DNA of 64,000 bases from Sphingobium sp. JS3065 (GTDB lineage: Bacteria > Pseudomonadota > Alphaproteobacteria > Sphingomonadales > Sphingomonadaceae): positions 3,165,501 to 3,229,500 of the forward strand of contig NZ_CP102664.1 in NCBI RefSeq assembly GCF_026427355.1, read 5' to 3'. The notes below the pieces were generated by a model. The model saw nothing but the letters and a program-made list of their open reading frames with translations, was not told the origin of the DNA and made no database searches. Positions 1 through 37,945 of the stretch are shown piece after piece (the first letter of the stretch is position 1; each line of letters starts with the position of its first letter). Both the position numbers and the translations under genes were made by a program.

Positions 1-1170
1 TGACAAACCGTGGACTGGGACCAGGGCGCGCGGGTTTACCGCTTTGGCAAAGCGCGCGATGTCGGAAGGGCTGGCGTGGCCGCTGGTGTGGAGGTGCAGT
101 GCCTTCGCACCGGCCTGCCGGGCACGACCCCAACCCGCGGCTTCATCCAAGTAGCCGCGCCAGTTAGAGAAGACGTATGCATCGCGCTCTGTGAAGCCGA
201 GGCCGCCGCGCGCGAACTCCGCCACCATGGAGTCCCGCGTCATAACTATTGCGCGACCGCCTGATAGACGCTTGCGGGAGGTGGCATATGGTTTCCGAGC
301 AAGAGCGTCGACCCAGTCATCGCGACCTTGCCTTGCATAGAGGCGTTTTCCTGAGCCGGTAATGATTACCTGCAACTCGGGGAATCGCGGATCGCCGGGG
401 AAGGGGATCCCCGTGCCAGGTGCAATCCGTTGCAGTACGTCTGCGCCATAGAGGTCCACCACCAGGGAACGCCCGGTGCGTTTCGCGGCGCGGAACAATG
501 TGACTGTTCGGTCGAGATTCTGTGCGGACCAGTTTACGAAGATGTGTCCCTGCACCTCCTGAGCAAGCTGGGTAAAATCCTGTTCCAGCTCTGCCTCGGT
601 GACGACAGGCTTGTGGGTTCCCAGGTTCGTGCCTTCGATGATCAGTGCGTCCACATCTCGGGGCGGATTTGCGATCATCGCCTCAACGAGTGCGGCCTTA
701 CGCCCGTGGCAGCGAAAATCTCCTGAATAGAGTATGCGGCGGCCCTCTGCTTCGATCAGGAGCATGTATGCGTCAGCGGCGCTATGGTCGGTGAGGAAAG
801 GTGTCACCGAGAATGCGCCGAGGGCAAGAGGACATGACCTAGCCCGCCACGTGGAGATCGAACGGGAAAGCGGCGTCCCGAACAGACCAGAAGTAAGCCG
901 CATCAACTCCGCTGCTTTTTCACCGGTCCAAAGGGGCCAATGCGCGGGCAGTTCGTCGATCAGGCCCCAGTGATCCATGTGCGCGTGGCTGAACAGAACG
1001 GTGGCGGGACCGTAGCGATCGAGTGTCTGGGGTAGGAGGCCGCTCGCCTCGCGCGGTGCGTCGAGCGGCCGGCCGGCATCCAGGATCAAGCGCTCGCCTC
1101 CTGAGGCGACGAGTTCGATGCACGAGCCGCCGATCGCGCGTGTGCCGCGATGGACAATCACCTCAAGCAT
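1..1170 (-). CDS. MBL-fold / beta-CASP nuclease-like protein, 3' end outside window
   Basis: Metallo-beta-lactamase fold hydrolase of the RNase J/CPSF type. The frame stays open for 390 codons up to the window edge, so the C-terminus is missing. HAHMDH near residues 62-67 is the HxHxDH two-metal motif, and SGDFR near 150 supplies the bridging Asp. Late in the visible part, TSGHAS and then PVHG match motifs of the beta-CASP subfamily, which acts on nucleic acids. The start codon overlaps the stop of the upstream gene as TGATG, so the two are translationally coupled in the same minus-strand operon as the AddAB-like genes. A nucleic-acid substrate is inferred from the beta-CASP motifs and the neighbours; RNA versus DNA cannot be decided. 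Confidence 0.8.
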   Translation of the reverse strand, partial: MLEVIVHRGTRAIGGSCIELVASGGERLILDAGRPLDAPREASGLLPQTLDRYGPATVLFSHAHMDHWGLIDELPAHWPLWTGEKAAELMRLTSGLFGTPLSRSISTWRARSCPLALGAFSVTPFLTDHSAADAYMLLIEAEGRRILYSGDFRCHGRKAALVEAMIANPPRDVDALIIEGTNLGTHKPVVTEAELEQDFTQLAQEVQGHIFVNWSAQNLDRTVTLFRAAKRTGRSLVVDLYGADVLQRIAPGTGIPFPGDPRFPELQVIITGSGKRLYARQGRDDWVDALARKPYATSRKRLSGGRAIVMTRDSMVAEFARGGLGFTERDAYVFSNWRGYLDEAAGWGRARQAGAKALHLHTSGHASPSDIARFAKAVNPRALVPVHGLS

Positions 1171-2171
1171 CAGGGGCGCGGTTCCAGTTCCGGGATACTG
1201 CCTTGGTCCAAAACGCCAAGGCATGATGCCGTTGGCTTGCAGCCAATTGGAACGACTTTGATACCAAATCGAGAGAGACGCGCCTCGTGCTCGTTTTGCA
1301 CGAAGGAATTTGCATGGGCCAAATAGCGCTCCATCTCTGTACTGCGCGGCACTCCATCGGCTCGGGGCGAACAGTAATTGCCGACGACCACTCCGGGAGG
1401 AAGGATCACGGATGCTGCATCGCCGGCGTCGGCAAATGTCTGCCAAGCTGCGATGGCCGGGCCGGTCTTGCCGAACATTTCGGCTAGGGCGAGAAGGATC
1501 CGTGCAGCTTCGGAATAGGCTGAGCGCACCTCGCTGGGACCGCCGTCGTGATCCATCCAACCCACATATTTGCGGAGCTGATCCACCACGTGTGGTGCCG
1601 CTGGTTTATTGTGGTCGGACCGTAGTTCACCGTTCACGGCGCATTTGGCTTCCCAGAACCCGATGTCCTGACCCTGCGCCACCACTAGATCCATGCGGGG
1701 TGCGACTCTACCGGTGGCATCGGGACGAGCAGGAAGAGCCATTTCCAGGTCCAGCGTGCCCGCAGTGACGGCCACTAAATCATCTACAAAACGCTTCTCG
1801 TCACCTGCATAGGTTTCGGCGGCGTGAACCCATTTAGCGACGTCCATCATGGGTGTCGCCGTCCCACGACCGAGCGAGAAGGACGTATATTTCTGAGCAT
1901 ATTTGCTCTCGTCTTCGTGCCCTTTAACGACGCCCGCCACATATTTGTCGTGGACTTCGAAACGAGGTGAGCCGGAACGTATGCTTAGCTTGGCTACGGA
2001 CTGGCCCTTTACATAAAAATTCAAATATCCATTGCGCACCGCAACGCGTAGTCCATGTGGACCCGCATCTTCGCCCGGCAGCACCCAGCGGTCGAACAGG
2101 GCTTTGATGACGGGGACTTCCCGGTAGTTGCGCAGGACATCGACGTCGAATTTGCGTTCAAAAAGTGGCAT
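1170..2171 (-). CDS. PD-(D/E)XK nuclease-like protein (active-site copy of a paralogous pair)
   Basis: A 333-residue protein of no family I can name. Residues 158-176 carry a PD-(D/E)XK-like active site: Asp161 in PRMDLVV, then Glu174 and Lys176 in GFWEAK, with a possible supporting Glu143. An N-terminal beta-rich block (about residues 40-65) and a C-terminal block after PGVVVGNY are shared with the protein encoded just upstream (2216-3157), so the two are paralogues. It is preceded by a 44-bp gap and overlaps the MBL gene by TGATG. A nuclease role in the helicase-nuclease operon is inferred from the motif alone; there is no direct proof of fold. Confidence 0.6.
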   Translation of the reverse strand: MPLFERKFDVDVLRNYREVPVIKALFDRWVLPGEDAGPHGLRVAVRNGYLNFYVKGQSVAKLSIRSGSPRFEVHDKYVAGVVKGHEDESKYAQKYTSFSLGRGTATPMMDVAKWVHAAETYAGDEKRFVDDLVAVTAGTLDLEMALPARPDATGRVAPRMDLVVAQGQDIGFWEAKCAVNGELRSDHNKPAAPHVVDQLRKYVGWMDHDGGPSEVRSAYSEAARILLALAEMFGKTGPAIAAWQTFADAGDAASVILPPGVVVGNYCSPRADGVPRSTEMERYLAHANSFVQNEHEARLSRFGIKVVPIGCKPTASCLGVLDQGSIPELEPRP

Positions 2172-2215
2172 GCAGGCTCTCTACTCATCAGTTGCGACAG
2201 ATTTGGTCATGGAGA

Positions 2216-3157
2216 TCATTGCTTCAGTAAGGGCAGTGTCAGCTCGGCCGGGGACGTGGCGTCCGTTGCCTGCTGTGCCATCAAGACCGTTCGGCCGCCT
2301 TCCTGCAGAAGGTCGATAACACCAGTTCGGGAGAGCTTATCAACGCACTGCTGGATCCGCCGACTTGCCACCGGAGGGTTGTAACCTTTCGGCCAATAGG
2401 CGCTGACGATTAAACCCGGACGGCTGATTATGGCTGGAGGTAGATGCGTGGCTACTGCGCGCCACAAAGAAGCGCTGCGAGGGCATGTGCCGCTACAGAA
2501 AAGCTCGTCCAGATTCACCAGTGTCTCGGCCGCTTGACACAATTGGGCCGCTGCGGCGTTGCCGTCATCCTCATTCTCAATGGGCTGCAACAAGGCCGGG
2601 GCGCCACCATCTCGCCCGTGCAAATTGTGGGAGCAGGCAGTCATGACGTCCCACAGAGCTATGCCGGCCGGGTAGTTAGTTCCTACCTGAGCAACGGCAA
2701 TGCGACCTCCATATCGGCGGTCTCCGGAACCAGACTCCGCGGTCACGCCTATTACGCCAGGGTTAGCTGCGATGACCTCTTCAAGGAAACAGGAACCCTC
2801 GTATCGTGTCGTACACGCCTCCTCTATGCTGCTGATTATCTCATCCGTTCGCTTCGGGGTCGCAAGTGCTGCAGGGCGATAGGTCCGCACACCGCCATCG
2901 GCGGTCACGGTGAGCAAGGGTGCGGCATCAGCCGAAAGCAAAGAGCCCACTTTCCTACCGTAATGATAGATGGCGATGCTGTCCTTAAAGGGCATCATCC
3001 GCAGTGGCGTCTCTGGCGAAAGTGGACAACCCGGCCGAGCCCATCGCTCGAAGAGCGCGCGCACAGCGTTACCTGGATGGGCCGCGTCCCACCGAGCCAA
3101 AGAGCTGACGTCGTAAAATTTAAGCATCTTTATCCGGTTTCCGTCGGTTGACAGCAT
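2216..3157 (-). CDS. Degenerate paralogue of the neighbouring nuclease-like protein
   Basis: 313 residues if the first ATG is used. The ATG at 3127 (MLKFYDVSSL) aligns better with the N-terminus of the paralogue and has GGATAAAG just upstream, so the true protein may be 303 residues. Shared blocks are an ALFxRW segment, a beta-rich segment near residues 52-74, and a late block starting PGLIVSAYW. At the positions of the paralogue's Asp, Glu and Lys it has Arg152, Asp170 and Met172, so the PD-(D/E)XK site appears lost. It sits between the AddA-like gene and the active paralogue, which suggests a structural or DNA-binding partner in a heteromeric complex. Function is unknown. Confidence 0.55.
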   Translation of the reverse strand: MLSTDGNRIKMLKFYDVSSLARWDAAHPGNAVRALFERWARPGCPLSPETPLRMMPFKDSIAIYHYGRKVGSLLSADAAPLLTVTADGGVRTYRPAALATPKRTDEIISSIEEACTTRYEGSCFLEEVIAANPGVIGVTAESGSGDRRYGGRIAVAQVGTNYPAGIALWDVMTACSHNLHGRDGGAPALLQPIENEDDGNAAAAQLCQAAETLVNLDELFCSGTCPRSASLWRAVATHLPPAIISRPGLIVSAYWPKGYNPPVASRRIQQCVDKLSRTGVIDLLQEGGRTVLMAQQATDATSPAELTLPLLKQ

Positions 3158-3260
3158 CCCTCAGGATTTTGGATGTCCACATCCAGACGTCATTCTGGTC
3201 GCTGAACGGGGGTATAGGGAAAGGAATTTATGGCTGCTGCGGTGAGCCGGAAAGCAGGCA

Positions 3261-6200
3261 TCAGCATGAACTGGTGCCCACCTGCAGAAGGCCTCCGACT
3301 ATCGGCATGTGGATGAATAGTTCGCAGGGAACACCAGGCCGCGCCTTGTCGAGCGCGTCAGCGTAGAGCTGGATTTGCGGGCCGTGCCCACCCGCTCGTG
3401 CATCCCAGCTGTCCGGCGAACCCGGAAAGGATTTGTGATCAATGATGGCGAAGCCGCTGTCATGCTCAACCAATAAGTCGATGCGTCCCGTTACCAGCTG
3501 ATCACCGATCCGGGCTGAAACTGGGGTCTCGCGATGAATTCGGCCGCTCGGCCATCGCTTCGAGATCTCGGCGAACAGCCGATCATTGGCTCCCAGCACG
3601 TCCTTTGCGGCAACCTGATGCACCCCCCAGCGATTGAGGATCGCTTGTGCTTGATTAAGCCGGGCATCGTACGGATCGTGAGGCTGATCTGCCGCAATGA
3701 TAGCGTGAACGGCTTCGCCGAGCAGGTTCATGTCCGGGCTGCCTGCAAACGGCAAACGGGGGCCGATCGTCGATTTCTCTACGATGACGAAGGTTTCGCC
3801 GCTGGAAGCCTCGCTAGGGCGACGATGAAGCGGTGCTCGGTGCCCCGTCGGTCGCGTGATGCGCCCGAATGAGACAACCGGAGGTTTGGCCTCCGCGCCT
3901 TCGCCGCACACTAGCGTTGCGGTTCTTGCCGGAAAAGCTTTCGTCCCAGCACGGATCTCTTCGCTGGCGCTAGGTGGTAGAGCGAAATGCTCCGTTTCGT
4001 CCCCATCGAGAACCTTCAACCAGTGAAGTGTTCCCTTAGCTGGAGGCGCAAACACAAGATGATCCCGAGCCCGGGTCATGCCGACGTAAAGAAGGCGGGC
4101 CTCCTCATCCCTCGATCGGATCGCAGCCTGTTGCCCAAGCGCCGAGCTGGGCGCTGAAGCATCGAGATATACGTCCTTTTCTTGGCTCGCATAGGGCCAT
4201 GGCCAGTAGCGGATCCAGCGTCCGACGAGAGGATTTTGCCAATCCAGGTCACCATCAGCCTCGGCCATGGGTTCGAACAGTCGAGGCTTTGGTTCTTTGC
4301 CCAGCCCGGTCAGGATTACGACGGGCCATTCAAGCCCCTTCGCTCCATGGTAGGTCATGACTTTAACAGCATCGTCACGAAGGCTTCGCGGGCGGGCTGG
4401 GTTCTCTGCAGCCAACGCGAGTGCCAGCCCCGAAGGCGTCGCAGGAGATCCCTCGCCCGCGCAGCTTTCCTCATAGCTCTGAGCGAAGCCGCGAAGCGCT
4501 TCGAGATCATCGAGACGCGCCGGCACGTCGCCCCAACTTTCGATGTGGCGATTGAGCTCAGGGAGAAGGATGATCGCATCGACGAGGTCGGCTGGCGTCA
4601 GCGACAGAATGCCCTCACGAATCTCTTGGAGGGCCGCGGAGATGGGTACGATGGCGAGCAGTGCCTCGGAGGCATTTTCAGCGCCAAGCGCCTCAAGCCA
4701 GGTTTCTGATTCTGGATCCTCGGCGAAGAAGCGGGCAAGTTCGGCAAGCGCGAGACGGTCTGTGGGATCTGCAACCCAGCGGAACGCGGCCATCACCAGT
4801 TGGACGTGCGGTGTTTGCGCCAATCCTTCACGCTCGACGGCTGCCTTGACGCCTTGCTGGCTAAGCGCAGCCGATACTTTGGCGATATCGGCTTTGCTAC
4901 GGCACAGAATAGCGATGTCTCCGGCGCGTAGCGCCCGAACGCCTTTGGGCCTGGCTGCCACTTCCCATGGTTGGTCGGCCGTCACCATCTCGCGGATTTG
5001 GGCGGCCAATGCGGCATATTGAAGCTCAAGCTTTCCTTCGAGCCACCAAACCGCGAGCGGCGCCTGCGTGAATCCTTCTTCGCTGCGACCCGTTCCGCTG
5101 AACGCATGTTCCTCCGCTTTAAGACCCATAGCGCTCAGAGCCGGCGCAAAGGCGGCGTTGACGAGGTTTACAATGCCCTCGCGGCTCCGATATGACGTCG
5201 CTAGCACATCTTGCGGTTCGCTCGACGATGCAGCGACCCCTGCGAACGCGGCGTGGGTGAGGGCGCTGTCCGCATTGCGGAAGCCGTAGATGGCCTGCTT
5301 GGGGTCTCCCACCCACGTGCTTGCGTCAACTAACCCGGACATCGCCGTGAAAATGGCGACTTGAAGCGGGCTGGAGTCTTGAAATTCATCGACAAACAGC
5401 CGGCCAATGCGCTCGCCCAGCCCCGCGGACATTACCGGATCGCGAAGGACGTCGAGCGCGAGCGCCTCTTGGTCGGTGAAGTCTAATAAGCCGCGCTCTG
5501 CTTTATAAGCTTGGAATGCAGTCAGGGCTTCGGCCGCACAGGCGAAGACCGACCTTATGAACTGCCTGCAATCCTCACGAAGCCGCGGATGTGCAGGATG
5601 GCGGCTCGCTGTTTGTGCAACTGCGTCGAGAGCGTCGATGAAAGCCTGACCATCTTTCTTAGCGCAGCCCACCTTCGACAGGCGGGCCCAGTTTGGCCAG
5701 GAGATCCGTTCTCCTCGACGAATGCTTGCATCGGTCTGGCGAAGCAACGCAATGGAGGATTTGGCAGTCGCGCTCGGCTCAACGGGAATCGCAGCCACTG
5801 CCGAACTTACGGCCTTTCGCAAATCCGCATCGAGATCGTCACTGCGCCGGATCGACACCGCTGGTAGCAATTCGAGGAAAGTTGCGACTGATCGCTCCGC
5901 CGAAACGGATAGATCTTGGGCGGGAATACCATTCGCTCGAGCCAGCTCTATCAAACGCCTGACGGTGGTACGCCAATCATTTCGTTCAGCGTCAGCGGCT
6001 CGTTTAGGCTCGAAGAACCCCATGACATCGGCGAGCAAATTCAGCGTTGGCGCGTGACGCTCGATCGCAGCATCGGCGGCGATCGCAAAAATACGGGACA
6101 CGCTGCCTTCGGGAATAACCTCGGCCCGCGGAGATCGCCCCAGAGCGATGGCGTTCTCAGATACAATCTGACCGCAAATGGCATTTACCGTTCCAAAGCG

Positions 6201-6419
6201 GGCTCCAAGCAATCGCGCTGCCTTATCCGGCATGCCCAATTCGAACAGCTTGGCACGCGAGCGCTCGATCAGTTCGTCCGCTGCTTTCACCGTGAATGTG
6301 GTTGCGACGATCGTCTCGGGATCACGGGATGTGACCTCCGTCGCGATGTTGCCGACAATGCGGGTGGTTTTGCCGGCGCCAGCAGACGCCACGACGGTCG
6401 TGATATTGGGAACGGTCAT
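3261..6419 (-). CDS. AddA-like UvrD/Rep helicase with C-terminal PD-(D/E)XK nuclease
   Basis: About 1052 residues. SF1A helicase motifs appear in order: Walker A (SAGAGKTT, residues 12-19), motif II DEFQDS (about 343), motif III GDPKQAIYGFR (about 370), TSYRS, motif V TYHGAKGLEW, and motif VI YVGMTRARD. The last ~80 residues contain GRIDLLVE followed by IIDHK and QIQLYADAL, the RecB-family nuclease motifs. I chose the ATG at 6419 because it lies two bases after the stop of the upstream AddB-like gene and puts Walker A near the N-terminus; a longer frame would start inside that gene. This resembles AddA of the end-resection machinery, but its partners differ from chromosomal addAB, so it may be an accessory system. 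Confidence 0.85.
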   Translation of the reverse strand: MTVPNITTVVASAGAGKTTRIVGNIATEVTSRDPETIVATTFTVKAADELIERSRAKLFELGMPDKAARLLGARFGTVNAICGQIVSENAIALGRSPRAEVIPEGSVSRIFAIAADAAIERHAPTLNLLADVMGFFEPKRAADAERNDWRTTVRRLIELARANGIPAQDLSVSAERSVATFLELLPAVSIRRSDDLDADLRKAVSSAVAAIPVEPSATAKSSIALLRQTDASIRRGERISWPNWARLSKVGCAKKDGQAFIDALDAVAQTASRHPAHPRLREDCRQFIRSVFACAAEALTAFQAYKAERGLLDFTDQEALALDVLRDPVMSAGLGERIGRLFVDEFQDSSPLQVAIFTAMSGLVDASTWVGDPKQAIYGFRNADSALTHAAFAGVAASSSEPQDVLATSYRSREGIVNLVNAAFAPALSAMGLKAEEHAFSGTGRSEEGFTQAPLAVWWLEGKLELQYAALAAQIREMVTADQPWEVAARPKGVRALRAGDIAILCRSKADIAKVSAALSQQGVKAAVEREGLAQTPHVQLVMAAFRWVADPTDRLALAELARFFAEDPESETWLEALGAENASEALLAIVPISAALQEIREGILSLTPADLVDAIILLPELNRHIESWGDVPARLDDLEALRGFAQSYEESCAGEGSPATPSGLALALAAENPARPRSLRDDAVKVMTYHGAKGLEWPVVILTGLGKEPKPRLFEPMAEADGDLDWQNPLVGRWIRYWPWPYASQEKDVYLDASAPSSALGQQAAIRSRDEEARLLYVGMTRARDHLVFAPPAKGTLHWLKVLDGDETEHFALPPSASEEIRAGTKAFPARTATLVCGEGAEAKPPVVSFGRITRPTGHRAPLHRRPSEASSGETFVIVEKSTIGPRLPFAGSPDMNLLGEAVHAIIAADQPHDPYDARLNQAQAILNRWGVHQVAAKDVLGANDRLFAEISKRWPSGRIHRETPVSARIGDQLVTGRIDLLVEHDSGFAIIDHKSFPGSPDSWDARAGGHGPQIQLYADALDKARPGVPCELFIHMPIVGGLLQVGTSSC

Positions 6420-6421
6420 GT

Positions 6422-9109
6422 TCAGTTGGCCTCCACGCCTACGCGGCAGAGCGCTGTAAGTTCGCAATAGCGACACGGTTCGGTCCCCGTCTCGATCGGG
6501 AGATCGGCCGGTATGTGGGCCTCGGCCTCATCGGCACCCGTCGCAATCGCAATCCCCTCCCGGGCTAGATCGCGCCACACCTGCCACGTCGACACGAGAT
6601 TCGACCATGTGTCGGGCAGGCTATGGTCGGATTCGACCGATTCCTCCGCCAGGAACGAACCGCTCAGCCCGATCAGCTGTCGCTGGTTCAGCATATAGAA
6701 CGCGCCTGGAGCAGGTGTGGTGCTGTTGGAATTTGCTATCGCACCATATGTCGCGAGCTGAATCGAACGACCTTCGGCGAGCTCGTTGCGTCGCGTTTTA
6801 GCGCTCCTTGACCATTTCAGATCAATGACGCCTGTGCCGTGAGTCGGATGCTCTATCAGCATGTCGATGCGGCCCTTTACATCCGGTCCATCGACGAACG
6901 TCCTCGCGCGTTCGATTTCCGTCCCAATCACCGTTACGTCCATCGCCTGCAGAAGACGTGCGAGTTGGGCCAGAGCAGCTGGGACTTTGAACCGGGCCGA
7001 CGCAAGCTCGCCGGCATATTCCGGCTGCTGAAGCGGTGTGGCGATCGCACTGAGCAATTCGTCAAATAGATCATTGGCTTGCGAGAAAACGTCTTCTGGA
7101 GCAGGCACAGGTCCTGGCGGGAAAACGCGATTTGCAAGTTCATGAGCGAGGTTGCCCAGCAGCTGGCTTGTGCCAGGGATCTCAGCAACCCGGCCGCCTG
7201 AGAGTCGCAAAACGTCGAGAAGGAGCCATCGCATCTGGCAGTCCGCGAGATGCTCGAAGCTGGTGGCGCTTTCGACGCGATCGTCGAGTTTGGCGATCAC
7301 AGATACCGGCAGAGACCAGCGAGGGCGCTGTGCTGGCAAGAGGTTTGGAGTGATCGCTTCACGGAGAATCTCGCGCCCTGCGAGCTCATGAGACGGCCCG
7401 TGCAATAGCTGTTCTGCTGGCCATTGGATCATGTCCTTAGCAGGTGTCGTCAATGGGTTCAGCTGATGCGCGAGGGGATGGCTCGTGGTCTCCTCCCCCG
7501 CCGAAAGCGCTGGCGAGAAAAGAATGACGCGCTCCCCAGCGCGATGCACCGCGTTGGCGTTACTCCACCCAATCCGGGCGGTGATCGCGGCCGGCGATTC
7601 GATTTCGCAGCCATGACCCTTAAGAGCAGCAACCTCAGCTGCGGTCCATGGCGATGAGCTTACGCGTTCTCCGGGACCTTTGAAGTCCCACCAAAGTACG
7701 TTTTTGGCATCGCCCCAAATGGCGCCTGGATGACGCACGGCACGCAAACCCCCCGATGTCGCTATGTGGTTGGGGTTTTGAGCGCCGTCCGCAAGCACCT
7801 GGTCGGTCATGCGTCCTAGCAGCAGCGGAGAGAGCATCTCGACGTTCAGAACATCGATCGCTTGCACGAGAGCCTGCGCGGCACCAACTAGCGTCAGAAG
7901 AAGCGGATCAGCATTTCCAGCATTCGTATCGAGCGCCCATTGCGCGACGCGCGAAGCGATCGACTTGGCCGCCTCCGCAGGCATGCCTTCGTGCCGCGGA
8001 TATAATTCTCCAGACGTCCATTGCCTCCACGCCGTAAGCTTCGCATCGCGCTTTTCTTGAGGTTCTGTGGACATCCTTTCGGCAAGATCTGACTCGATAT
8101 TACCCCATGCAGCGAGCCATGCTGGCCCGCCTGTGCCAGGCTCGCGGCTCAGTGCATAGGCGAGCTTGCGCGCCGCACGTCGCGCGATGGGAGGACGCGG
8201 TAGCATGAGCAAGTCAAGCATCGCCTTCGCATTAAATGGTGCCCAAGAAGCGGCGAAGGCGAGTGGGAGCACCTGAAGTGCTCCACGCCACGGCGACGAG
8301 GCCGACAAGCCCAGAGCGGGAAGCCCGCGAGCTTGAAGCGCGCGGTCCAGCAGCGCGGTGTCTCCGTCAGCGCTCACTATGACCGTGCCATGCAACTCGG
8401 CTTCCGAACAATGGGAAAGCCACTCTGCAGCTGCTTCAGCCGCCGCCAAGGCAGTGTCCGCGTGGACGATCGCGAAGCTACCATCGCCTGTTAACGTCGA
8501 GGGTGAGCCGTCCGCGAGAAAGGCTTGCACGTGGCCCAGGTCGTTGGCGGAAGTTGCACAGGCAGGAGCCTGCGAGATTTCTACCCCCGATCCCTCCAGC
8601 GTATCGATAAGGCGCTGCCAGAGAGGCGGCAGCAAATCTCGGGGCTCGACCAGCTCGATTGAGGCGAGCGGTAGACCGGCACGGACCTTAACCGCCTCGC
8701 AGAGCGTGCGCGTGCGATCTGCGATCCCGGGGGAAAGGGGCGAACCAGCCTCTTCCACCACCGCGAATGCATCAACACGTCCGGCGCCAATAGGGCTGCC
8801 GGACCAGCCGCCGGCGATCAGTTCATCTCGCCAATCGAGCAATGATGCGGCAGTGGCCCACGGATCAAGGGTGAACGACTGACCGAAGAACAGGTCCGGG
8901 GCTGTGGCCTGCGCGGTACGCAATTTAGCAGCGTAGCTGGAAACTCGAACCGCATGTGCCACCCGGGGAGCTGTGAGGCCAAGCTGCACCTCGAGCATCT
9001 CTATGAGGCCTTGTGGCCCCACTACGGCGGCATTGAAGACGCCTTCATTCGGGCCCGGAAAATCCGGAAAGGAAGGGCCATCGCATGAAAGGCCGAAGAT
9101 AAGCTTCAT
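6422..9109 (-). CDS. AddB-like PD-(D/E)XK nuclease with iron-sulphur cysteines
   Basis: 895 residues, first gene of the minus-strand operon. The N-terminal two thirds are diverged and have no evident Walker A, as expected for a helicase-like scaffold. Near the C-terminus, GRIDMLIE and then VIDLKWS form the RecB-type nuclease core. C879-x2-C882-x5-C888 at the extreme C-terminus plus an upstream Cys in HLADCQMRW match the four-cysteine iron-sulphur staple of AddB nucleases. The stop is two bases before the AddA-like start, so the pair is almost certainly co-translated and forms a heterodimer. Family assignment rests on the nuclease and cysteine pattern and on the partner gene. Confidence 0.8.
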   Translation of the reverse strand: MKLIFGLSCDGPSFPDFPGPNEGVFNAAVVGPQGLIEMLEVQLGLTAPRVAHAVRVSSYAAKLRTAQATAPDLFFGQSFTLDPWATAASLLDWRDELIAGGWSGSPIGAGRVDAFAVVEEAGSPLSPGIADRTRTLCEAVKVRAGLPLASIELVEPRDLLPPLWQRLIDTLEGSGVEISQAPACATSANDLGHVQAFLADGSPSTLTGDGSFAIVHADTALAAAEAAAEWLSHCSEAELHGTVIVSADGDTALLDRALQARGLPALGLSASSPWRGALQVLPLAFAASWAPFNAKAMLDLLMLPRPPIARRAARKLAYALSREPGTGGPAWLAAWGNIESDLAERMSTEPQEKRDAKLTAWRQWTSGELYPRHEGMPAEAAKSIASRVAQWALDTNAGNADPLLLTLVGAAQALVQAIDVLNVEMLSPLLLGRMTDQVLADGAQNPNHIATSGGLRAVRHPGAIWGDAKNVLWWDFKGPGERVSSSPWTAAEVAALKGHGCEIESPAAITARIGWSNANAVHRAGERVILFSPALSAGEETTSHPLAHQLNPLTTPAKDMIQWPAEQLLHGPSHELAGREILREAITPNLLPAQRPRWSLPVSVIAKLDDRVESATSFEHLADCQMRWLLLDVLRLSGGRVAEIPGTSQLLGNLAHELANRVFPPGPVPAPEDVFSQANDLFDELLSAIATPLQQPEYAGELASARFKVPAALAQLARLLQAMDVTVIGTEIERARTFVDGPDVKGRIDMLIEHPTHGTGVIDLKWSRSAKTRRNELAEGRSIQLATYGAIANSNSTTPAPGAFYMLNQRQLIGLSGSFLAEESVESDHSLPDTWSNLVSTWQVWRDLAREGIAIATGADEAEAHIPADLPIETGTEPCRYCELTALCRVGVEAN

Positions 9110-9442
9110 TCTTAACTATCCCCCATCCGCGAGCTGCCTCGTCAGCACACGGCATCGCTGGCCGTAAGCGCAAATGCTTTGTCATGTCATTAATGAATGC
9201 GCCCACGACAAAGGCGGTCGTGACAGGTTCGTCTCACGAAAACAGAGGCTTGGCGTTTCGACCTAGTGTCGCCAAGCTTTGCCTAGATGCTCGGAAAGGC
9301 GGCACTGGAATCCCGCAGGGCGGCTGCTGGAAGCAGGATGTTTGATAGGTTTAGCGGGGGAATTTTGGCTGTCGCTGAGAAGTGAAATGTTCCTCGGGCG
9401 CTGGAGGGCAGCCGCCTCCGCGCCAAGTCGAAGAGACTTAAT
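9110..9442. other. Divergent intergenic region with a hairpin
   Basis: 333 bases between the minus-strand helicase-nuclease operon and the plus-strand unknown operon, so it must hold both promoters. An inverted repeat (GCTTGGCG at 9248-9255 and CGCCAAGC at 9270-9277, 14-base loop) lies inside it and could be an operator or an RNA hairpin. No convincing gene was found here. Confidence 0.5.
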
Positions 9443-9979
9443 ATGGTATATGTGAATGAAGAAGATCGGCAGCGGATCTCGGACGGCGAAGAGGCCGTGC
9501 GCGCGCTTGCCAAGATGGGGGGCTGGGCCACTCAGCCCTGCGATGGGCTATTCCCGCAGATTCTGAGCCAATATCGTCACAGTGAGCGGGCCGGGCTCGT
9601 TCTTGGTCACTGGCGTCGCGAAATTTCGTTGAGCAAATTGATCGAGGCAGTCCGTCAGATACGAACGGACATTCTTATTCTTGAACCAGGGCGCGACACC
9701 TCGGGGCGGAAGACATATTATCTTTCGCTGATCCTCGCTCGGGCCGGTGAGGTCCGCCTCCACCGGGGTCTGCGGCTCTGGTCTGCCGACTTCGATTCGC
9801 TGCTGTGGGTAGTCGCAGATCCAAGGGATAGAGATCTCGATCCCTGCTTTTTCAGCAGTCGGGCCACCGGCTTTAAGGAGGAAGCTGGAGCGCCTTTTGG
9901 TGATCCGGTCTCTGCTGAGACAGGCTTGCGGATCGCCGATCTTCGCTGGGTCGCGGAAATCGGAGGTCACTTCGTATGA
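9443..9979 (+). CDS. Unknown protein, first gene of a coupled operon
   Basis: 178 residues; I do not recognise the family. The protein is mixed alpha/beta with no signal peptide or membrane segment, and no catalytic motif stands out. Its end overlaps the next start as ATGA, so it is translationally coupled. It is divergent from the AddAB-like operon and heads a run of plus-strand accessory genes that leads to a MobA-like protein and a recombinase, which suggests it belongs to a mobile or plasmid-derived module. Confidence 0.6.
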   Translation: MVYVNEEDRQRISDGEEAVRALAKMGGWATQPCDGLFPQILSQYRHSERAGLVLGHWRREISLSKLIEAVRQIRTDILILEPGRDTSGRKTYYLSLILARAGEVRLHRGLRLWSADFDSLLWVVADPRDRDLDPCFFSSRATGFKEEAGAPFGDPVSAETGLRIADLRWVAEIGGHFV

Positions 9980-10335
9980 GCCACGACGAGAATTTGCAGT
10001 GGGAACCATGCCTTCCGGCCGGTTGGCAACCGCTGTTTCGCCAGCTGTTGGCCGATCTGCATTCGGCTGGAATTTCGGTGAGAGTGACCCAAGCCAAAGA
10101 GAAGTTCGGGGAGCTGAGGGTCTATATTGATCAGCCTGACCAAGCAGCAGCGCCGCTCATTGCAGCCGCTGAGCAGCGTTCGACCCGCATGTGCCAAGAG
10201 TGTGGCGCTGCTGGTGAGCTGATGGTCGGTAATTATCTCTATGCCACACTTTGTGAGAAACATGGGGCCGGTTTCACAAAACCGCTCGGGCGGCCGATGA
10301 TATCGCTCAATCTCCGGTACCCCAAAGACGATTGA
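9976..10335 (+). CDS. Small unknown protein with a CxxC...CxxH metal site
   Basis: 119 residues. Cys73-x2-Cys76 (MCQECG) and Cys93-x2-His96 (LCEKH) form a plausible zinc-ribbon site, and the preceding VTQAKEKFGELRVYI strand resembles small hypothetical proteins seen in accessory regions. It overlaps the previous gene by ATGA. No enzymatic motif is visible. A zinc-dependent binding role is an inference from the cysteine spacing. Confidence 0.6.
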   Translation: MSHDENLQWEPCLPAGWQPLFRQLLADLHSAGISVRVTQAKEKFGELRVYIDQPDQAAAPLIAAAEQRSTRMCQECGAAGELMVGNYLYATLCEKHGAGFTKPLGRPMISLNLRYPKDD

Positions 10336-10476
10336 GGACGAGCGCTGCCGACACCAAGCGGCAGCGGTTTCGATCGGTTGAGAAGAGCTCAGGTGACTGA
10401 GCAGATGAGATGAAAATCTTGGGGTGATGCGCGTCCAAGCTCAGCGGATCGCGCCCCTAAAAGGAAGATAATAAAT

Positions 10477-10974
10477 ATGTTTAGCTCGATGAACGCGCAG
10501 CCCGGCTCGGGTGCGCCAACAATCCCGTTCGTCCGTGACGCAGTCCAGCGCGCGATGATCAAGGTCGCTTGGGAAATCGGCGGGCCTATCAGCGTCGATC
10601 CGGCCTTCGGGGGTGGAGCGCTCCTGCTTCAGGAAGCCAACCTCTTGATCCTTGGTACGTCGGCATTTCGGCCCCTTGGGGAGCAGCTGTTTGGCCAGAT
10701 CGGTGACCTCTACGGCATGGACACTCTGCTCGTCCGGTTCGACGCATATCATTGCAGCTTCGATATTCTTTTCCACGGCGAAGGCGAGTGGCTGTCGGAT
10801 TATCGGCAAAGCCTTTTGGGCGGACAGATTTGGTTTGTTCCCGCGCACGAAGATCAATCCTTTACCGTCAGGGCCGATAGTCAGGGGCTCTTCCTCAACC
10901 CCCCAATGCTGCCGAACTCATTCTATCGGCCGAGTGCGGCCGACATTCAGCCGGCAGGGAGGGATGCGGCATGA
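10477..10974 (+). CDS. Unknown protein upstream of a MobA-like gene
   Basis: 165 residues with no family I recognise, no signal peptide and no obvious catalytic motif. It is separated from the previous gene by about 140 bases without another gene and overlaps the following gene by ATGA, so it is coupled to the HxH protein and may work with it. Confidence 0.6.
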   Translation: MFSSMNAQPGSGAPTIPFVRDAVQRAMIKVAWEIGGPISVDPAFGGGALLLQEANLLILGTSAFRPLGEQLFGQIGDLYGMDTLLVRFDAYHCSFDILFHGEGEWLSDYRQSLLGGQIWFVPAHEDQSFTVRADSQGLFLNPPMLPNSFYRPSAADIQPAGRDAA

Positions 10975-11546
10975 CCCAGAAGAAGTCGAAGTCGGGCCCT
11001 GAGGAATTGTCTTGCTTCTATCTCGATTGGCCCGGCCATCCCCAGTTTCGCTACATGCGTTGGTACTGGAAGACCGACGGCGCGCGCATCGGGATCGCCG
11101 CCCCGGTGTTGGCGAAGCTCAATCCCTCTGGCCATCAGGCGGCTCGGCATGACCTTCTCCTTCCGAGCAGTGCGCCAGGGGAATATGCGGACCTGAGCTA
11201 TTTGCTCGAACGCTATGATGCTACCCAGCCCGTGATCGAACGGAATGGTTATGCCCAGTTCAACATCATTCTCGATGCCGACCGCCCTCTCCATGCCGAT
11301 TGGGAACTGGTCCGCGCCTGGGCACTGAGCTACTTCGTGCGCGAGCTGCAACTTGCCGCTGTCCTCGTCCTGCATGCGCCATTCCTGGCGGGCTCCGCGA
11401 ATGAACCCCATGTCCATATCCTGGTGCCAGCTCGGCGGCTGACTGCGAATGGGTTTGGGCTGCACGCCCGTGACACTTGCTCGGATGCAGGCGCGGCTGA
11501 AGCGCTTGCCAGCTGGTTGGCGTATAACGGGGTGGAAGCCGTATGA
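10971..11546 (+). CDS. MobA/MobL-like HxH protein (possible minimal relaxase domain)
   Basis: 191 residues. The centre reads as a strand and helix, then His135, then NEPHVHILVPAR with His147 and His149, followed by GFG. This His plus HxH arrangement and the following R...GFG resemble the metal site of MobA/MobL relaxases (NPHAHI...R...GFG). There is no helicase or primase extension, and the protein is far shorter than usual mobilisation proteins, so it may be a stand-alone HUH-like domain or an inactive relative. I could not identify a catalytic Tyr with confidence. It overlaps genes on both sides by ATGA. Confidence 0.5.
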   Translation: MTQKKSKSGPEELSCFYLDWPGHPQFRYMRWYWKTDGARIGIAAPVLAKLNPSGHQAARHDLLLPSSAPGEYADLSYLLERYDATQPVIERNGYAQFNIILDADRPLHADWELVRAWALSYFVRELQLAAVLVLHAPFLAGSANEPHVHILVPARRLTANGFGLHARDTCSDAGAAEALASWLAYNGVEAV

Positions 11547-18993: not shown

Positions 18994-20373
18994 ATGTCGC
19001 TAAGCCAATTTTACACTCGCTACCAGCCAGTCCTAGACTTCCTGATAGAAGGGGACCCGGCGAGTTCCAAATCTCTTAAGATTGTCGATGAGCCGGGCGG
19101 CCAGGCCGCCGTCGATCGCTTGGCTGCGTCAGAGGATTTTCAAATCTTGGCATCTCAGCTCTTGGCGGCCAACCCGTTCGCTGCGATGGGACGTCTCACC
19201 GATGAGGTGCGGCATAGTAACTTCCTCGCCTACCTCCTTACACCTTGGCAAACCCATGGATATGGGACCGATGTGCTGTTTGGCCTTTGTCCGGCGTTTC
19301 GAGGCACTGCATCCACCCCTCCGTCTGATCCCAAGGACATCATCGTACTTCGCGAGCACGTCGGTGACGAGTTCGCAGTTGTCTTCGATCAGGCCATAGC
19401 GTCGAGAGACCGTCCCGGACGGCCCGATGTCATTGTGTATGACCCCATTCTTCGCCGTCTTGCGATCATCGAACTGAAGATTGGTTCAGCTGAGGGACCG
19501 GCTCAGAGGAGGCGCTATCGTCAGTGGGCCACAGAGTTCTTTGCTAAATACTACTCCGAGGGCCCCAGCTGGCAGTGCAACTTCGTCTTCCTTGCGAAGG
19601 ACGCTGACGCCGCAACGAGGGTGGCGGAGGGGATGATGAGCGCGCGGCCGTTCGAAATTCCTACTGGCGGCGTTTTCCAATCGGACATCCACGAAGATAG
19701 CGTGTGGACGATGGCCCATTACGGTCATGTCACGCAGGTTCTCTCCTCCGTCATCGATCGATCCCCTCCGCGGGCTGGGGACCAGCTGGTCAAGGATTAC
19801 CTTGCCTTCCTCGGCGAGCACGTTTGCCCGTCGCAAGGGCTCTTCAGTCCCATCGTCCAGAAGCTCGTAGCCGAACACCAGACAGCCCTTGACGCCGTGA
19901 GGCAGGAGCGTCGGAAACTTCGCCAGGAAGTGATCACGGCGCTTCAGCCGGCGTTTGAGGATCTCGGCCTACAGATTACCGAGATGAACAACGGTCATTT
20001 CACTGGCAACCCGTACAATGCAGTATCGCTAAGCTATGTCCGTAGCGACGATGGCGATCTAGTCGGCTGGGGCGCTGATGCAACGGAACTGACGTGGCAA
20101 TTTTCTGTCTTCGTGAAGGGAAGCGGAACTGCACTCTGTGCCGAACTTGAAAAAGCAGATGTGACCAGGCGCGGGACGTGGTCCGAGCGGTTTAGATACA
20201 AGGCGCAGCGAGAATCCGCGGGCAAGCGTGTCTTGACGATCAAACTGCCCATGCCGATCCAGCAAAAGCCTTATCCCCTGACGCGCGCCAACCTCCCGTT
20301 CTTGGTCGAACATCTCCGCATGAGACTACGGACAAAGGCAAAGCTGCACATCGATCAGGCCCGCCTCGGATGA
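18994..20373 (+). CDS. PD-(D/E)XK nuclease-superfamily protein (PDDEXK_4 type)
   Basis: 459 residues. Glu71 and His74 in DEVRHSNFLAYLL, then GRPDVIVYD (Asp145) and IIELKIG (Glu160, Lys162), match the PDDEXK_4 family, a group often encoded in accessory and defence loci. The C-terminal 150 residues form an uncharacterised domain with strand-rich segments (WQFSVFVKGSG). No partner gene is adjacent on the same strand. A nuclease role is inferred from the complete active-site set; the target is unknown. Confidence 0.65.
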   Translation: MSLSQFYTRYQPVLDFLIEGDPASSKSLKIVDEPGGQAAVDRLAASEDFQILASQLLAANPFAAMGRLTDEVRHSNFLAYLLTPWQTHGYGTDVLFGLCPAFRGTASTPPSDPKDIIVLREHVGDEFAVVFDQAIASRDRPGRPDVIVYDPILRRLAIIELKIGSAEGPAQRRRYRQWATEFFAKYYSEGPSWQCNFVFLAKDADAATRVAEGMMSARPFEIPTGGVFQSDIHEDSVWTMAHYGHVTQVLSSVIDRSPPRAGDQLVKDYLAFLGEHVCPSQGLFSPIVQKLVAEHQTALDAVRQERRKLRQEVITALQPAFEDLGLQITEMNNGHFTGNPYNAVSLSYVRSDDGDLVGWGADATELTWQFSVFVKGSGTALCAELEKADVTRRGTWSERFRYKAQRESAGKRVLTIKLPMPIQQKPYPLTRANLPFLVEHLRMRLRTKAKLHIDQARLG

Positions 20374-21895: not shown

Positions 21896-23419
21896 TTAAT
21901 GGAAATCGTGACTGCGGATTGGCACCATGTCTTCTCGATTGTCTTTGATGTGAAAGGGCGGTGACGCGAGCGTGCGCCCGTCCCGTAGCCTTGGATCGCG
22001 TGGATCTGGCCCACCGCCATGGCTCGCGCCGTCACCGCGACCGGGCATAACCGTAAAGTCTTTCTTGCCGATCGACCGCAGCATGTCATCATGATCGATG
22101 ATCCGATCGCAGATGACATGGATGACCTCGCCTTCCTTCTGTAGCCGCCCCCGTATAGCGATCATGGATGCGGACATCACTTGCCGGCGATAAATCTCGA
22201 ACTTGTTCGGCCAGAGGATGCCGTTGGCAACGCCGGTCTCGTCTTCGATGGTCACGAACAGCACGCCCTTGGCTGACCCGGGCCGCTGCCGCACGAGGAT
22301 GACGCCAGCTACCTCGACATTGCGCCCGTCCCGGATGGCGCGAAGGTCGGCGCAGCGCACGACCTGCATCCGGTCGAGCTGCGGGCGTAGGAAGCTCAGC
22401 GGATGATCGCGCAGCGACAGCTGGAGCGAGCGATAGTCCTCCACCACTTCGCGCCCTTGCGTCATCGGCTGTAGCGTGACGGGCGCCTCTAGACCTTCGG
22501 GCGAGAATTTCCCCTCCCGCTCGTCGGCGGCGGCAAATAATGGCAGCGGCGCTTCGCCCAGACCCTTGACCTTCCATAGCCCCTGCCGCCGGTCCTGTGC
22601 GATGCAGGAAAAAGCGTCCGCCTCCGCCAGCCGCTCAATCGCGGCGCGCGGCACGCCGGCGCGGCGCCAGACCTCCTCAACGCTCCCGAACGGCGCCGGA
22701 CCGCGCGCGCCGACGATCGCCGCGCCATGGAGATTGGCAAGCCCGCGCACCTGCCGAAAGCCTAGGCGCACCGCTTTGTAGCGGCCTCGCGCCGGTTCCA
22801 GCGTGCAGTCCCAATGGCTGTGGTTGATCGACACTGGCCGCACCTCGACGCCATGTTGCCGGGCATCCCGCACGATCTGCGCCGGGGCATAGAAGCCCAT
22901 GGGTTGGGCATTCAGCAGCGCCGCGCAGAAGACGTCAGGATGATGATGCTTCATCCAGCAGGACGCATAGGCGATCTTGGCGAAGCTTGCCGCATGGCTT
23001 TCGGGAAAGCCGTAGCTGCCGAATCCCTCGATCTGCTTGAAGGTGCGCTCGGCAAAGTCCTTTGGGTAGCCGCGTGATACCATGCCGTTCACCAGCTTGT
23101 CGTAAAAATGGCTGACCCCGCCCGTCAGCTTGAACGTCGCCATGGCGCGGCGCAGCTGGTCGGCCTCGGCGGGGGTGAACCCCGCGCCGACAATCGCCAC
23201 CTTCATCGCCTGCTCCTGGAAGAGCGGCACGCCCAACGTCTTCTTGAGCACGGCCTTCAGCTCCTCCTTGGGATATTCGGGCTGCTCCTTGCCCTCGCGG
23301 CGGCGGAGATAAGGGTGGACCATGTCCCCCTGGATCGGACCCGGACGGACGATCGCGACTTCGATGACGAGATCGTAGAACTCCATCGGCTTGATCCGCG
23401 GCAGCATCGACATCTGGGC
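21896..23419 (-). pseudogene. dnaE2: 3' half of dnaE2 (error-prone polymerase), 5' half deleted
   Basis: Homology starts abruptly at [20 protein letters not shown] and continues through [33 protein letters not shown] and the OB-fold region to the normal C-terminus ([17 protein letters not shown]). About 508 residues remain of a protein usually near 1,080. The missing half holds the PHP domain and the catalytic aspartates of the alpha-subunit-type palm, so polymerase activity is not expected. Its 5' end is joined directly to imuB sequence in another frame, showing a deletion across the imuB-dnaE2 junction. Confidence 0.85.
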
Positions 23420-23426
23420 GGTCACT

Positions 23427-24779
23427 TGTGCCGAGGCCCGCCTCCAGCGTCTGTGCCCGAAGTTCCTCAATCCGCGGCGCGACGAGCATCATCGCCTCGA
23501 TACCAAGCCCAGGGTCGATTCGCTCGATCCGCATGCCGAGCATGCGCTTTAAATGCCGGGCATCGCGTGTGGCGCGGGCGGTGCCAATCGCGACATGCTG
23601 CTCGGTACCATCGACAATCGCGCAGGTGAGATGGGCAGCGCGCAGGCCCATGCCGCGCTCCTGCAGCAGGACCACCAGATCGTTGACCAGATCACCGATG
23701 ACCTGCGTGATGGCCTCGGCGGTGCCGATGGGTTCGAGCAGCCGCCGCTCCGCACGCGGCGCTTCGAACGGTACGACGGGAACGATCGGCTCGGCGACCA
23801 GTCCACGCGCTTGGTCCAGTCGACGGACGGTCGCCAGGCCCATGCGACGGGCCAGGGGGCCGCGCGGCATGGGATAAAGATCGGCGATCCGTTCAAGGCC
23901 GAAGCGCGCCGCCGACAGCAGCGCCTCGGGTTCCAGCCGCAATGCCGCTAGCGGCAGATCGGCGATCGCCTGGGTCTCTGTGCCGGGCGGTAGCAGGGTG
24001 ATGGCCTTGCCGCCATAGCGCGCCAGCGCATGGGCGGCGCCAGGCGTACCGGCGATGGCGATGCTGCCGGTAAAGCCCAGCCGCTCCAGAAAACGTAGCA
24101 GCCGTCGGCAGAAGCGCGCCTCGCCTCCGAAGAGGTGGGTGGTGCCGGTGAGATCCAGCCACATTCCGTCGTTGCCTGACGGGCAGGCTGTCGGCGTCCA
24201 ATGACCGACCGCGTGGAGGGCCAGGCGCTCGAGCCAGGTCCGATCGGCCTCGGGATCGGCGTCACGCACATCGAGGTCGGTCACCAGCGCGCGGGCGTGC
24301 GCGGCCGCCATGCCGGGACGCAGGCCAAGCTTAAGTGCCACCGGGCAGGCGGCGGTCACCACCTCACGCTGCCCTGTCCGCGCGATCAGAATTGTCGGCT
24401 GCCCCCATAGGGTCGTCCATGTGACAGCGGGGGCAGACCGGGTGCTGGTGCCGCCTTCATCAGCTGGCATAGCTTTGAAAGGATGCTCCGCCGACTCGCT
24501 GCGGCGGCCCATTTCGCGCATGGTGGGGCGCTGGTGCGCGGGCAATGCGTCGATTACGCTCTGGCTTGGACGCTTCGCATCATCACGCGCCCAGCGTGCG
24601 CCGGGCCGCCAGTGACCGCCGCGCGGCACTGAACAGGCGCCTGGATTGTCATCGACCGGCTCGGCCAAACGGGCGCGGATCGACAGGCCAGCGGGCTCAG
24701 GCCGCTTGGCTGGCCGCTCCAGCTGCCGCAGACGCTCTATGGGAAGCTGCGGCAGGTAGAGCGAGGCGACCCTGATCAT
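23427..24779 (-). pseudogene. imuB: 5' part of imuB (Y-family-like protein), 3' end deleted
   Basis: Starts MIRVASLYLPQLPIERLRQL, the usual ImuB N-terminus, and continues through the Y-family-like region (WTTLWGQPTILIA; LFGGEARFCRRLLRF; ALARYGGKAITLLP) to about [13 protein letters not shown]. There the sequence switches to dnaE2 and the frame runs on as an out-of-frame read-through to 22935. The lost C-terminal part normally contains the beta-clamp and partner-binding region. The imuA overlap at its start is longer (83 bases) than usual. The product is unlikely to support mutagenesis. Confidence 0.8.
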
Positions 24780-37929: not shown

Positions 37930-37945
37930 GGAAATAATCTCCGAT

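Follow-up and report, generated by a model that had tools for sequence, protein, structure and literature searches.

Pairs of a metallo-beta-lactamase (MBL) fold nuclease and a trypsin-like protease have been described for the Hachiman, AVAST, Lamassu and DRT systems, and the MBL protein of these pairs is reported to resemble DNA-uptake nucleases (PMC12799240). They share with the locus presented here an MBL-fold nuclease that has another enzyme as partner and is exchanged between loci, whereas in our locus the MBL protein is of the beta-CASP type and is paired with a PD-(D/E)XK nuclease. The locus lies at one end of a 64,000-nucleotide stretch of Sphingobium sp. JS3065 (contig NZ_CP102664.1), which is called the window below, and the following five genes have been assigned.

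6422..9109, minus strand: AddB-like nuclease of an accessory module, 895 aa, with a PDDEXK_1 domain
3261..6476, minus strand: AddA-like UvrD helicase with a C-terminal PD-(D/E)XK nuclease, 1071 aa in the longest open reading frame
2216..3157, minus strand: 313-aa paralogue of NUC, with the catalytic motif lost (alignment) and selection relaxed (dN/dS)
1170..2171, minus strand: NUC, 333 aa, a PD-(D/E)XK nuclease whose family is unlisted and whose N-terminal domain resembles YjbR
1..1170, minus strand, running off the window: MBL, a beta-CASP metallo-beta-lactamase nuclease of 413 aa, assigned from motif residues

An earlier note on this DNA described five frames packed on one strand with coupling or short gaps, and the coordinates agree. 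The probable ATG of AddA is at 6419, 2 nt past the AddB stop; gaps of 103 and 44 nt separate the 313-aa gene from AddA and from the 333-aa gene, respectively, and NUC and MBL overlap by 1 nt (TGATG). The last 69 coding bases and the stop codon of MBL are outside the window (match at contig 3165432-3166670). In comparisons with two relatives and between the two, dN/dS was 0.08-0.22 for AddB, AddA, NUC and MBL, with purifying selection on the NUC-MBL pair, and 0.40-0.51 for the 313-aa gene; these values indicate that the five frames are genes and not chance frames.

The libraries searched (Pfam, NCBIfam and PADLOC) name no known system here, in agreement with the earlier note, which had recognised none. 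In PADLOC (2.0.0 for the AddB-like protein), the helicase matched GajB among the 25 of 50 families listed, and the other four proteins, including the AddB-like one, had no match. Gabija was rejected, since the GajB models match the helicase by generic UvrD similarity and GajA is absent. The combination of a HamA profile match and a HamB helicase, by which Hachiman is recognised, was not found. NUC differs from HamA of Hachiman and SduA of Shedu in lacking a PADLOC match and in having a different partner, and the Z values are too low to claim kinship. Membership of the MBL nuclease-protease pairs is likewise not supported, Pfam finding no protease family in the five proteins. Cas14 of type VII CRISPR shares a beta-CASP nuclease with MBL, but was rejected because MBL scored 27.7 bits, far below the cut-off of 800.

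The two large genes encode an AddAB-type helicase-nuclease in the wide sense, with Walker A, motif II, a PD-(D/E)XK domain in both subunits and the AddB cysteines. The helicase, the two nuclease domains, the four cysteines and the adjacency of the genes are shared with alphaproteobacterial AddAB. By Pfam, the AddA-like protein contains a UvrD helicase (4.5e-33) and PDDEXK_1 (2.6e-8), and the AddB-like protein contains PDDEXK_1 (E 4e-19). Walker A, the DEFQD region and nuclease residues D1000 and D1013-H-K1015 are present in all 17 aligned AddA-like proteins and F365 in 16 of them; D749, D763-x-K765, Q784 and Y788 are present in 19/19 aligned AddB-like proteins and the four cysteines, which we take to be of the Fe-S type, in 18/19. 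This pair is not the canonical addAB of the genome. The AddA-like protein scored 143.9 bits against addA_alphas (TIGR02784; cut-off 860.75), far below the cut-off, the AddB-like protein did not match TIGR02786, and a canonical pair is found elsewhere (addB_alphas 894.9 bits, cut-off 486.5; addA_alphas 1016.7 bits, cut-off 860.75). The accessory role proposed in the earlier note, which had suggested looking for a second addAB, is therefore supported. The AddB of the window is also shorter (895 aa, against 1007 aa in the canonical one), and its pair is a sporadic and often plasmid-borne second copy. It recurs without the other window genes, often on rhizobial plasmids amid defence genes, and its AddB family was found on 26 plasmid records (matches on 19 of these and in G036, G080 and G213 were left unopened). 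This accessory AddAB family is a second uncharacterised component.

NUC gave no significant sequence match in PDB, and its family has no match in Pfam (above cut-off), NCBIfam or PADLOC. It belongs to the PD-(D/E)XK group by D...(E)xK catalytic residues on an alpha-beta core, and the catalytic residues of both NUC and MBL are complete in their sequences. Pfam assigned Lactamase_B_2 (1.1e-10) and RMMBL (2.7e-5) to MBL, and H62, H64, D66, H67, H129, D151, E179, H361, H365 and H387 are conserved at 90% or more in 38 aligned rows. These include HxHxDH, H129, D151, the motif A acid and the motif B and C histidines, so that the beta-CASP assignment of the earlier note holds. By sequence, the nearest solved structures are EF2904 (2az4) and RNase J, with which MBL has the MBL and beta-CASP motifs in common, among them the motif C histidine. 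MBL is not RNase J proper, since it scored 51 bits against TIGR00649 (cut-off 400); it has 413 aa, against about 550 aa in RNase J, and 40 of 43 loci have a PD-(D/E)XK-like gene next to it.

These 43 are bacterial and plasmid MBL loci outside the own lineage (L004, L074 and L075 excluded), and a NUC-family gene adjoins MBL in 37 of them (30/35 and 7/8 in two sets of opened loci), in either order and once as a partial in-frame fusion. In three others the neighbour is PD-(D/E)XK-like but not of the NUC family; the partner of MBL is exchanged between families. From the side of NUC, MBL lies immediately downstream in 25 of 27 loci, and its longest frame begins 4 nt inside NUC in 13 of the 25, the remaining 12 depending on start choice. 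Distances of NUC and MBL are correlated (r 0.842, 0/5000 permutations, 30 pairs). The 8-locus set and L018, in which MBL is split over two frames, do not enter the correlation; L018 is included in the 27 and 43. Duplicates (L080 of L016, L088 of L028) were dropped, L121 and L122 share flanking genes and are not independent, and matches in G523, G600 and plasmid NZ_CP013569 (equal in length to the opened NZ_CP013575) were left unopened. MBL is sporadic (5/94, 2/249, 9/385 and 9/398 genomes sampled, own genome counted; about 1-5%). The pair is carried by plasmids and some phage contigs, and the MBL profile found seven viral contigs (L134 with the same match figures as L133). A NUC profile search of viral contigs found no relative. 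An MBL of an Enterococcus phage record (L094), amid transport-like genes and with no NUC match, was left out of the counts.

That the window holds two modules side by side, AddB-AddA and NUC-MBL, is well supported. Three Sphingobium relatives (L076-L078) have an AddAB-dGTPase block without NUC-MBL, which indicates that the NUC-MBL cassette was inserted behind addA; the sequences on either side match L076 at about 95% identity, and 3.9 kb have been exchanged between addA and the dGTPase gene. The earlier note had regarded the five genes as one unit and had suggested searching for the same five in unrelated genomes, but only 3 of the 20 AddB loci, which belong to one Sphingobium lineage, have NUC-MBL alongside, the other 17 lacking it, and this AddAB is present at 0/27 NUC loci (at least seven of them on contigs shorter than 9 kb). 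A single five-gene system, in which NUC, its paralogue and MBL act on the products of DNA opening and resection by AddAB, is therefore improbable, even though the genes are closely packed on one strand and one genome (G289, L074) keeps all five. Partial parallels exist on Ochrobactrum plasmid CP061774 (L049), where a divergent AddAB adjoins small-MBL-NUC, and in G622 (L090), where an AddA-like helicase adjoins MBL with another nuclease. Across the class, 3 of 385 genomes (own, G401 and G619) have both AddB (E 1e-40) and MBL (E 1e-20), the single rates being 5 and 9 of 385; in G401 and G619 the two are on separate contigs.

With regard to function, two independently mobile modules, of which NUC-MBL is an innate anti-phage or anti-plasmid device beside an accessory AddAB, are the reading that we favour as moderately probable. 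Proteins neighbouring NUC-MBL, AddAB and random stretches (95 each) matched 58, 162 and 2 PADLOC families, respectively. We consider it unlikely that the pair serves cellular nucleic-acid maintenance (RNA turnover or DNA repair) instead of defence and has spread horizontally. RNase J enzymes are among the nearest solved relatives of MBL, some sources call it ribonuclease J, and it is found in five small genomes of two families; against this, MBL is rare, the neighbours of the pair mostly vary by locus, plasmids and phage contigs carry it, and its PD-(D/E)XK partner is swapped. It is very improbable that the pair stabilises mobile DNA by addiction or in a toxin-antitoxin-like manner: the coupling of its two genes and their presence on plasmids and islands would suit this, but both proteins have full catalytic residues, neither is antitoxin-like, and gene order is variable.

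In the favoured reading of two modules, AddB-AddA would be an accessory module that breaks down or resects linear DNA with its helicase and its two nuclease domains. For NUC-MBL we infer substrate, trigger and defence role as follows: NUC most likely cuts invader DNA, with target preference given by its N-terminal domain, the RNase-J-like MBL most likely degrades RNA or the 5' ends made by NUC, and the two would act jointly. More tentatively, NUC-MBL may found a new and widespread kind of innate immune module, in which a constant beta-CASP nuclease is combined in either order with interchangeable PD-(D/E)XK nucleases drawn from several unlisted families and optional third genes (PP2C phosphatase, metallophosphoesterase or small HAD-like protein) on plasmids, islands and phages, and degrades invader DNA and transcripts together. 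If NUC-MBL is a defence system, a DNA nuclease is joined in two genes to an RNase-J-type nuclease, a pairing not found in the literature searched, and partner exchange around the conserved beta-CASP enzyme would make the self/non-self rule directly testable.

The two small proteins are paralogous, as had been noted, though with only 19-20% identity; the profile of the 333-aa family gave 73.5 bits for the 313-aa protein, which has no match above the Pfam cut-off. Of the "paired small nuclease" proposed earlier, the 333-aa member looks active from its residues, while in the 313-aa member catalytic D and ExK are replaced or deleted in the alignment, so that it lacks the catalytic signature of the PD-(D/E)XK superfamily. 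Its predicted model (pLDDT 81.3) arranges its elements in a similar order, but NUC sequences went into its construction, so that it is not independent. Judged from its sequence, the 313-aa gene is a decaying duplicate of NUC, and one relative has transposon-like DNA of about 5 kb interrupting it.

The earlier note placed five genes on one strand, and all of them are present on the minus strand:

6422..9109, minus strand, AddB-like protein
3261..6476, minus strand, AddA-like protein
2216..3157, minus strand, 313-aa paralogue of NUC
1170..2171, minus strand, NUC, a 333-aa PD-(D/E)XK nuclease
1..1170, minus strand, MBL, a 413-aa beta-CASP metallo-beta-lactamase nuclease

The 3' part of MBL, 69 coding bases beyond the window edge, was completed from the genome itself (G000; 5.1 Mb, with the window in a 3.56-Mb contig). 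Both the 333-aa protein and AddB have their closest named relatives in Sphingobium. The proposal that the five genes form one unit did not hold up: NUC-MBL was found inside the examined stretch at 3 of 20 AddB loci (our genome, G289 and G332), which represent one Sphingobium lineage, and AddA and AddB queries matched at none of the 27 NUC loci, at least seven of which are on contigs shorter than 9 kb. AddAB and NUC-MBL move independently of each other.

The suspicion that the window addAB is accessory was borne out, because a second, canonical pair in the same genome (G000:C1:1242789-1249236) reaches the NCBIfam cut-offs of both subunits, whereas the window AddA-like protein scores 143.9 bits against 860.75 required and the AddB-like protein has no match to the NCBIfam AddB model. 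All 17 aligned AddA-like proteins retain Walker A and the DEFQD region together with their nuclease residues, and in the AddB-like alignment the nuclease residues are found in 19 of 19 proteins and the four cysteines in 18; the window pair is predicted to be catalytically complete. AddB was detected in 8 of 94 Sphingobium genomes, 5 of 249 in the family sample (two being short matches at 29-31% identity and one a fragment) and 5 of 385 in the class sample. It is also found in 26 plasmid records. Of these, 17 are typed conjugative and 17 have a host in Rhizobium, Sinorhizobium, Agrobacterium or Bradyrhizobium; neighbours in the seven records opened include WYL proteins, DNA methylases, restriction enzymes, a CBASS cyclase, AbiEii, SIR2 and ThiF/multiubiquitin genes.

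Profile search with the 333-aa family gave 23 loci in genome contigs and four in plasmids; they belong to Alpha-, Beta- and Gammaproteobacteria, plus a single bin labelled Candidatus Solibacter. In 25 of these 27 loci MBL directly follows NUC, and the longest MBL frame begins 4 nt within NUC in 13 of the 25. With MBL-centred searches added, 43 bacterial or plasmid MBL loci outside our own lineage were opened: a NUC-family gene adjoins MBL in 37 (30 of 35 in one set and 7 of 8, one of them fused, in another), a different small PD-(D/E)XK-like gene, with a D...ExK motif spotted by eye, in three (L087, L089 and L090), and no recognised nuclease gene in the other three (L050, with a metallophosphoesterase there, L093 and L095). 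Both gene orders occur. At L125, a single 624-aa frame joins MBL (3-431) to the N-terminal part of NUC (472-516), which may be an assembly fault because the frame ends close to where the contig stops and does not include the catalytic half. Among seven viral contigs with MBL (six distinct), NUC or another PD-(D/E)XK-like gene adjoins it in L135, L136, L137 and L138 and no such gene in L133; L139 is a cut contig. The NUC and MBL distance matrices are correlated (r 0.842, 0 of 5000 permutations, 30 pairs), and NUC evolves faster (mean identity 0.33 vs 0.54 for MBL). NUC, MBL, AddA and AddB had zero matches in 16 random control stretches.

Possible third genes were seen at some loci: a PP2C-type phosphatase cluster in three (L013, L014 and L031) and, among L018, L020, L032 and L050, a metallophosphoesterase cluster in three, with a metallophosphatase 3' of MBL in Prevotella. 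In the small-genome loci L121-L124 the MBL-NUC pair is followed by a small protein, about 130 aa long, whose start (ILCLDFDGTIH) is HAD-like. Small proteins of about 130-160 aa sharing a GIFW motif (L048:5408-5992, L049:5549-5953, L095:6555-6998 and L120:4924-5394) look alike and belong to loci of the divergent MBL subtype, lying immediately 5' of MBL in L048, L049 and L095. Methylases were not among the recognised regular partners.

Two stretches of the Sphingobium relative G267 (L076), one running from upstream of addB to where addA ends and the other from the dGTPase on, are about 95% identical to our genome; our 3.9 kb between addA and dGTPase (own 7216-11095) are swapped there for 1.4 kb with a different gene:

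L076:12928-13818, 296-aa protein in the NUC-MBL slot, no Pfam match

The same interval has different frames in L077 and is about 1 kb in L078, with NUC-MBL in neither, and the final addA codons are unlike on the two sides of the junction. NUC-MBL and the paralogue were therefore put behind an older addAB-dGTPase block, or were swapped for other cargo.

Of the "paired small nuclease" in the earlier note, NUC stands, with its full D161/E174-x-K176 set, and the 313-aa paralogue, without catalytic residues in the alignment, does not. The latter is closer to another NUC clade (up to 0.30 identity) than to the adjacent NUC (19%), and its gene has a dN/dS of 0.40-0.51, compared with 0.08-0.22 for the remaining four genes. 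It is interrupted in G332 by about 5 kb that contain two transposase-sized frames, presumably IS66-like, and NUC and MBL are intact there. We read the 313-aa gene as a decaying duplicate; perhaps the protein retains a structural role, with which a dN/dS below 1 is compatible.

NUC-MBL itself is a mobile pair under selection with intact active-site residues. D161, E174-x-K176 and Q198 of NUC are present in 22 of 22 aligned rows, and the predicted model (pLDDT 91.6, pTM 0.91) aligns at about 123-323 to XisH, AF1548, PspGI, MunI, BsoBI, McrC, HamA and Shedu chains and at 6-133 to YjbR/DUF1801 folds; since every Z is below 8, these matches are support short of proof. MBL has the complete metal and beta-CASP residue set, matches the Pfam RMMBL domain and, by profile, EF2904 (7.7e-34) and RNase J structures, and has as motif C a histidine, a mark of RNA-acting beta-CASP members. 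NUC would cut DNA, its N-terminal domain may read the target, MBL would break down RNA or 5' ends, and the pair may block phages or plasmids.

Neighbour proteins were sampled from 34 NUC or MBL loci (95 of 230 eligible), 13 AddAB loci (95 of 108) and 16 random stretches (95 of 133), and matched 58, 162 and 2 PADLOC families at 1e-10, respectively; only the direction of this difference is safe, because the matched families are in many cases alternative models for a single protein, the sample includes the divergent AddA of L049 and the random stretches are chromosomal. PADLOC matches next to the window are a dGTPase and a WYL protein. AddAB and NUC-MBL could still cooperate, and the following speaks against a purely accidental neighbourhood: on the Ochrobactrum plasmid CP061774 (L049) a small gene, MBL and NUC are followed by divergent AddB-AddA, an AddA-like helicase lies upstream of MBL in L090, and AddB and MBL are both present in 3 of 385 genomes of the class sample, at single rates of 5 and 9. 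Such joint cases are few, however, two of the three co-carrying genomes have AddB and MBL on separate contigs, and clustering of island genes occurs anyway.

The accessible part of PMC12799240 reports protease partners for MBL nucleases of Hachiman, AVAST, Lamassu and DRT; both MBL type and partner differ from those of NUC-MBL. The accessible parts of PMC12839542, PMC11090510 and PMC13142454 describe no pair of the NUC-MBL type, and no such system was found in open-access literature listings, which does not prove absence.

Left of the window, L004:932-4829 (G000:C1) encodes consecutively a WYL regulator, a DUF2779 protein with a Cas4-like part and an SbcD-like phosphoesterase; relatives of the DUF2779 protein are also close to NUC in L012 and L023, and those of the WYL protein in L020, L028 and L031. 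The dGTPase-like HD protein (L004:13062-14402) adjoins accessory addAB in several Sphingobium genomes, and our genome has a second copy on C2 (57% identical) and another, more distant, on C1. Further genes are as follows:

L006:6001-9411 (G000:C2), Peptidase_M78-UvrD-PDDEXK_1 fusion, 1136 aa, another helicase-nuclease
window 49807-54522, DUF4011/AAA/MTES_1575/DUF3320 protein, 1571 aa
window 18994-20373, PDDEXK_4 nuclease-like protein, same region
window 22935-24779, ImpB/MucB/SamB-type (ImuB-like) polymerase family protein
window 36127-40908, two IucA/IucC siderophore synthetases
window 42570-44660 and 46063-48186, TonB receptors

A DUF4011 protein is also located near NUC-MBL on plasmid pC33.
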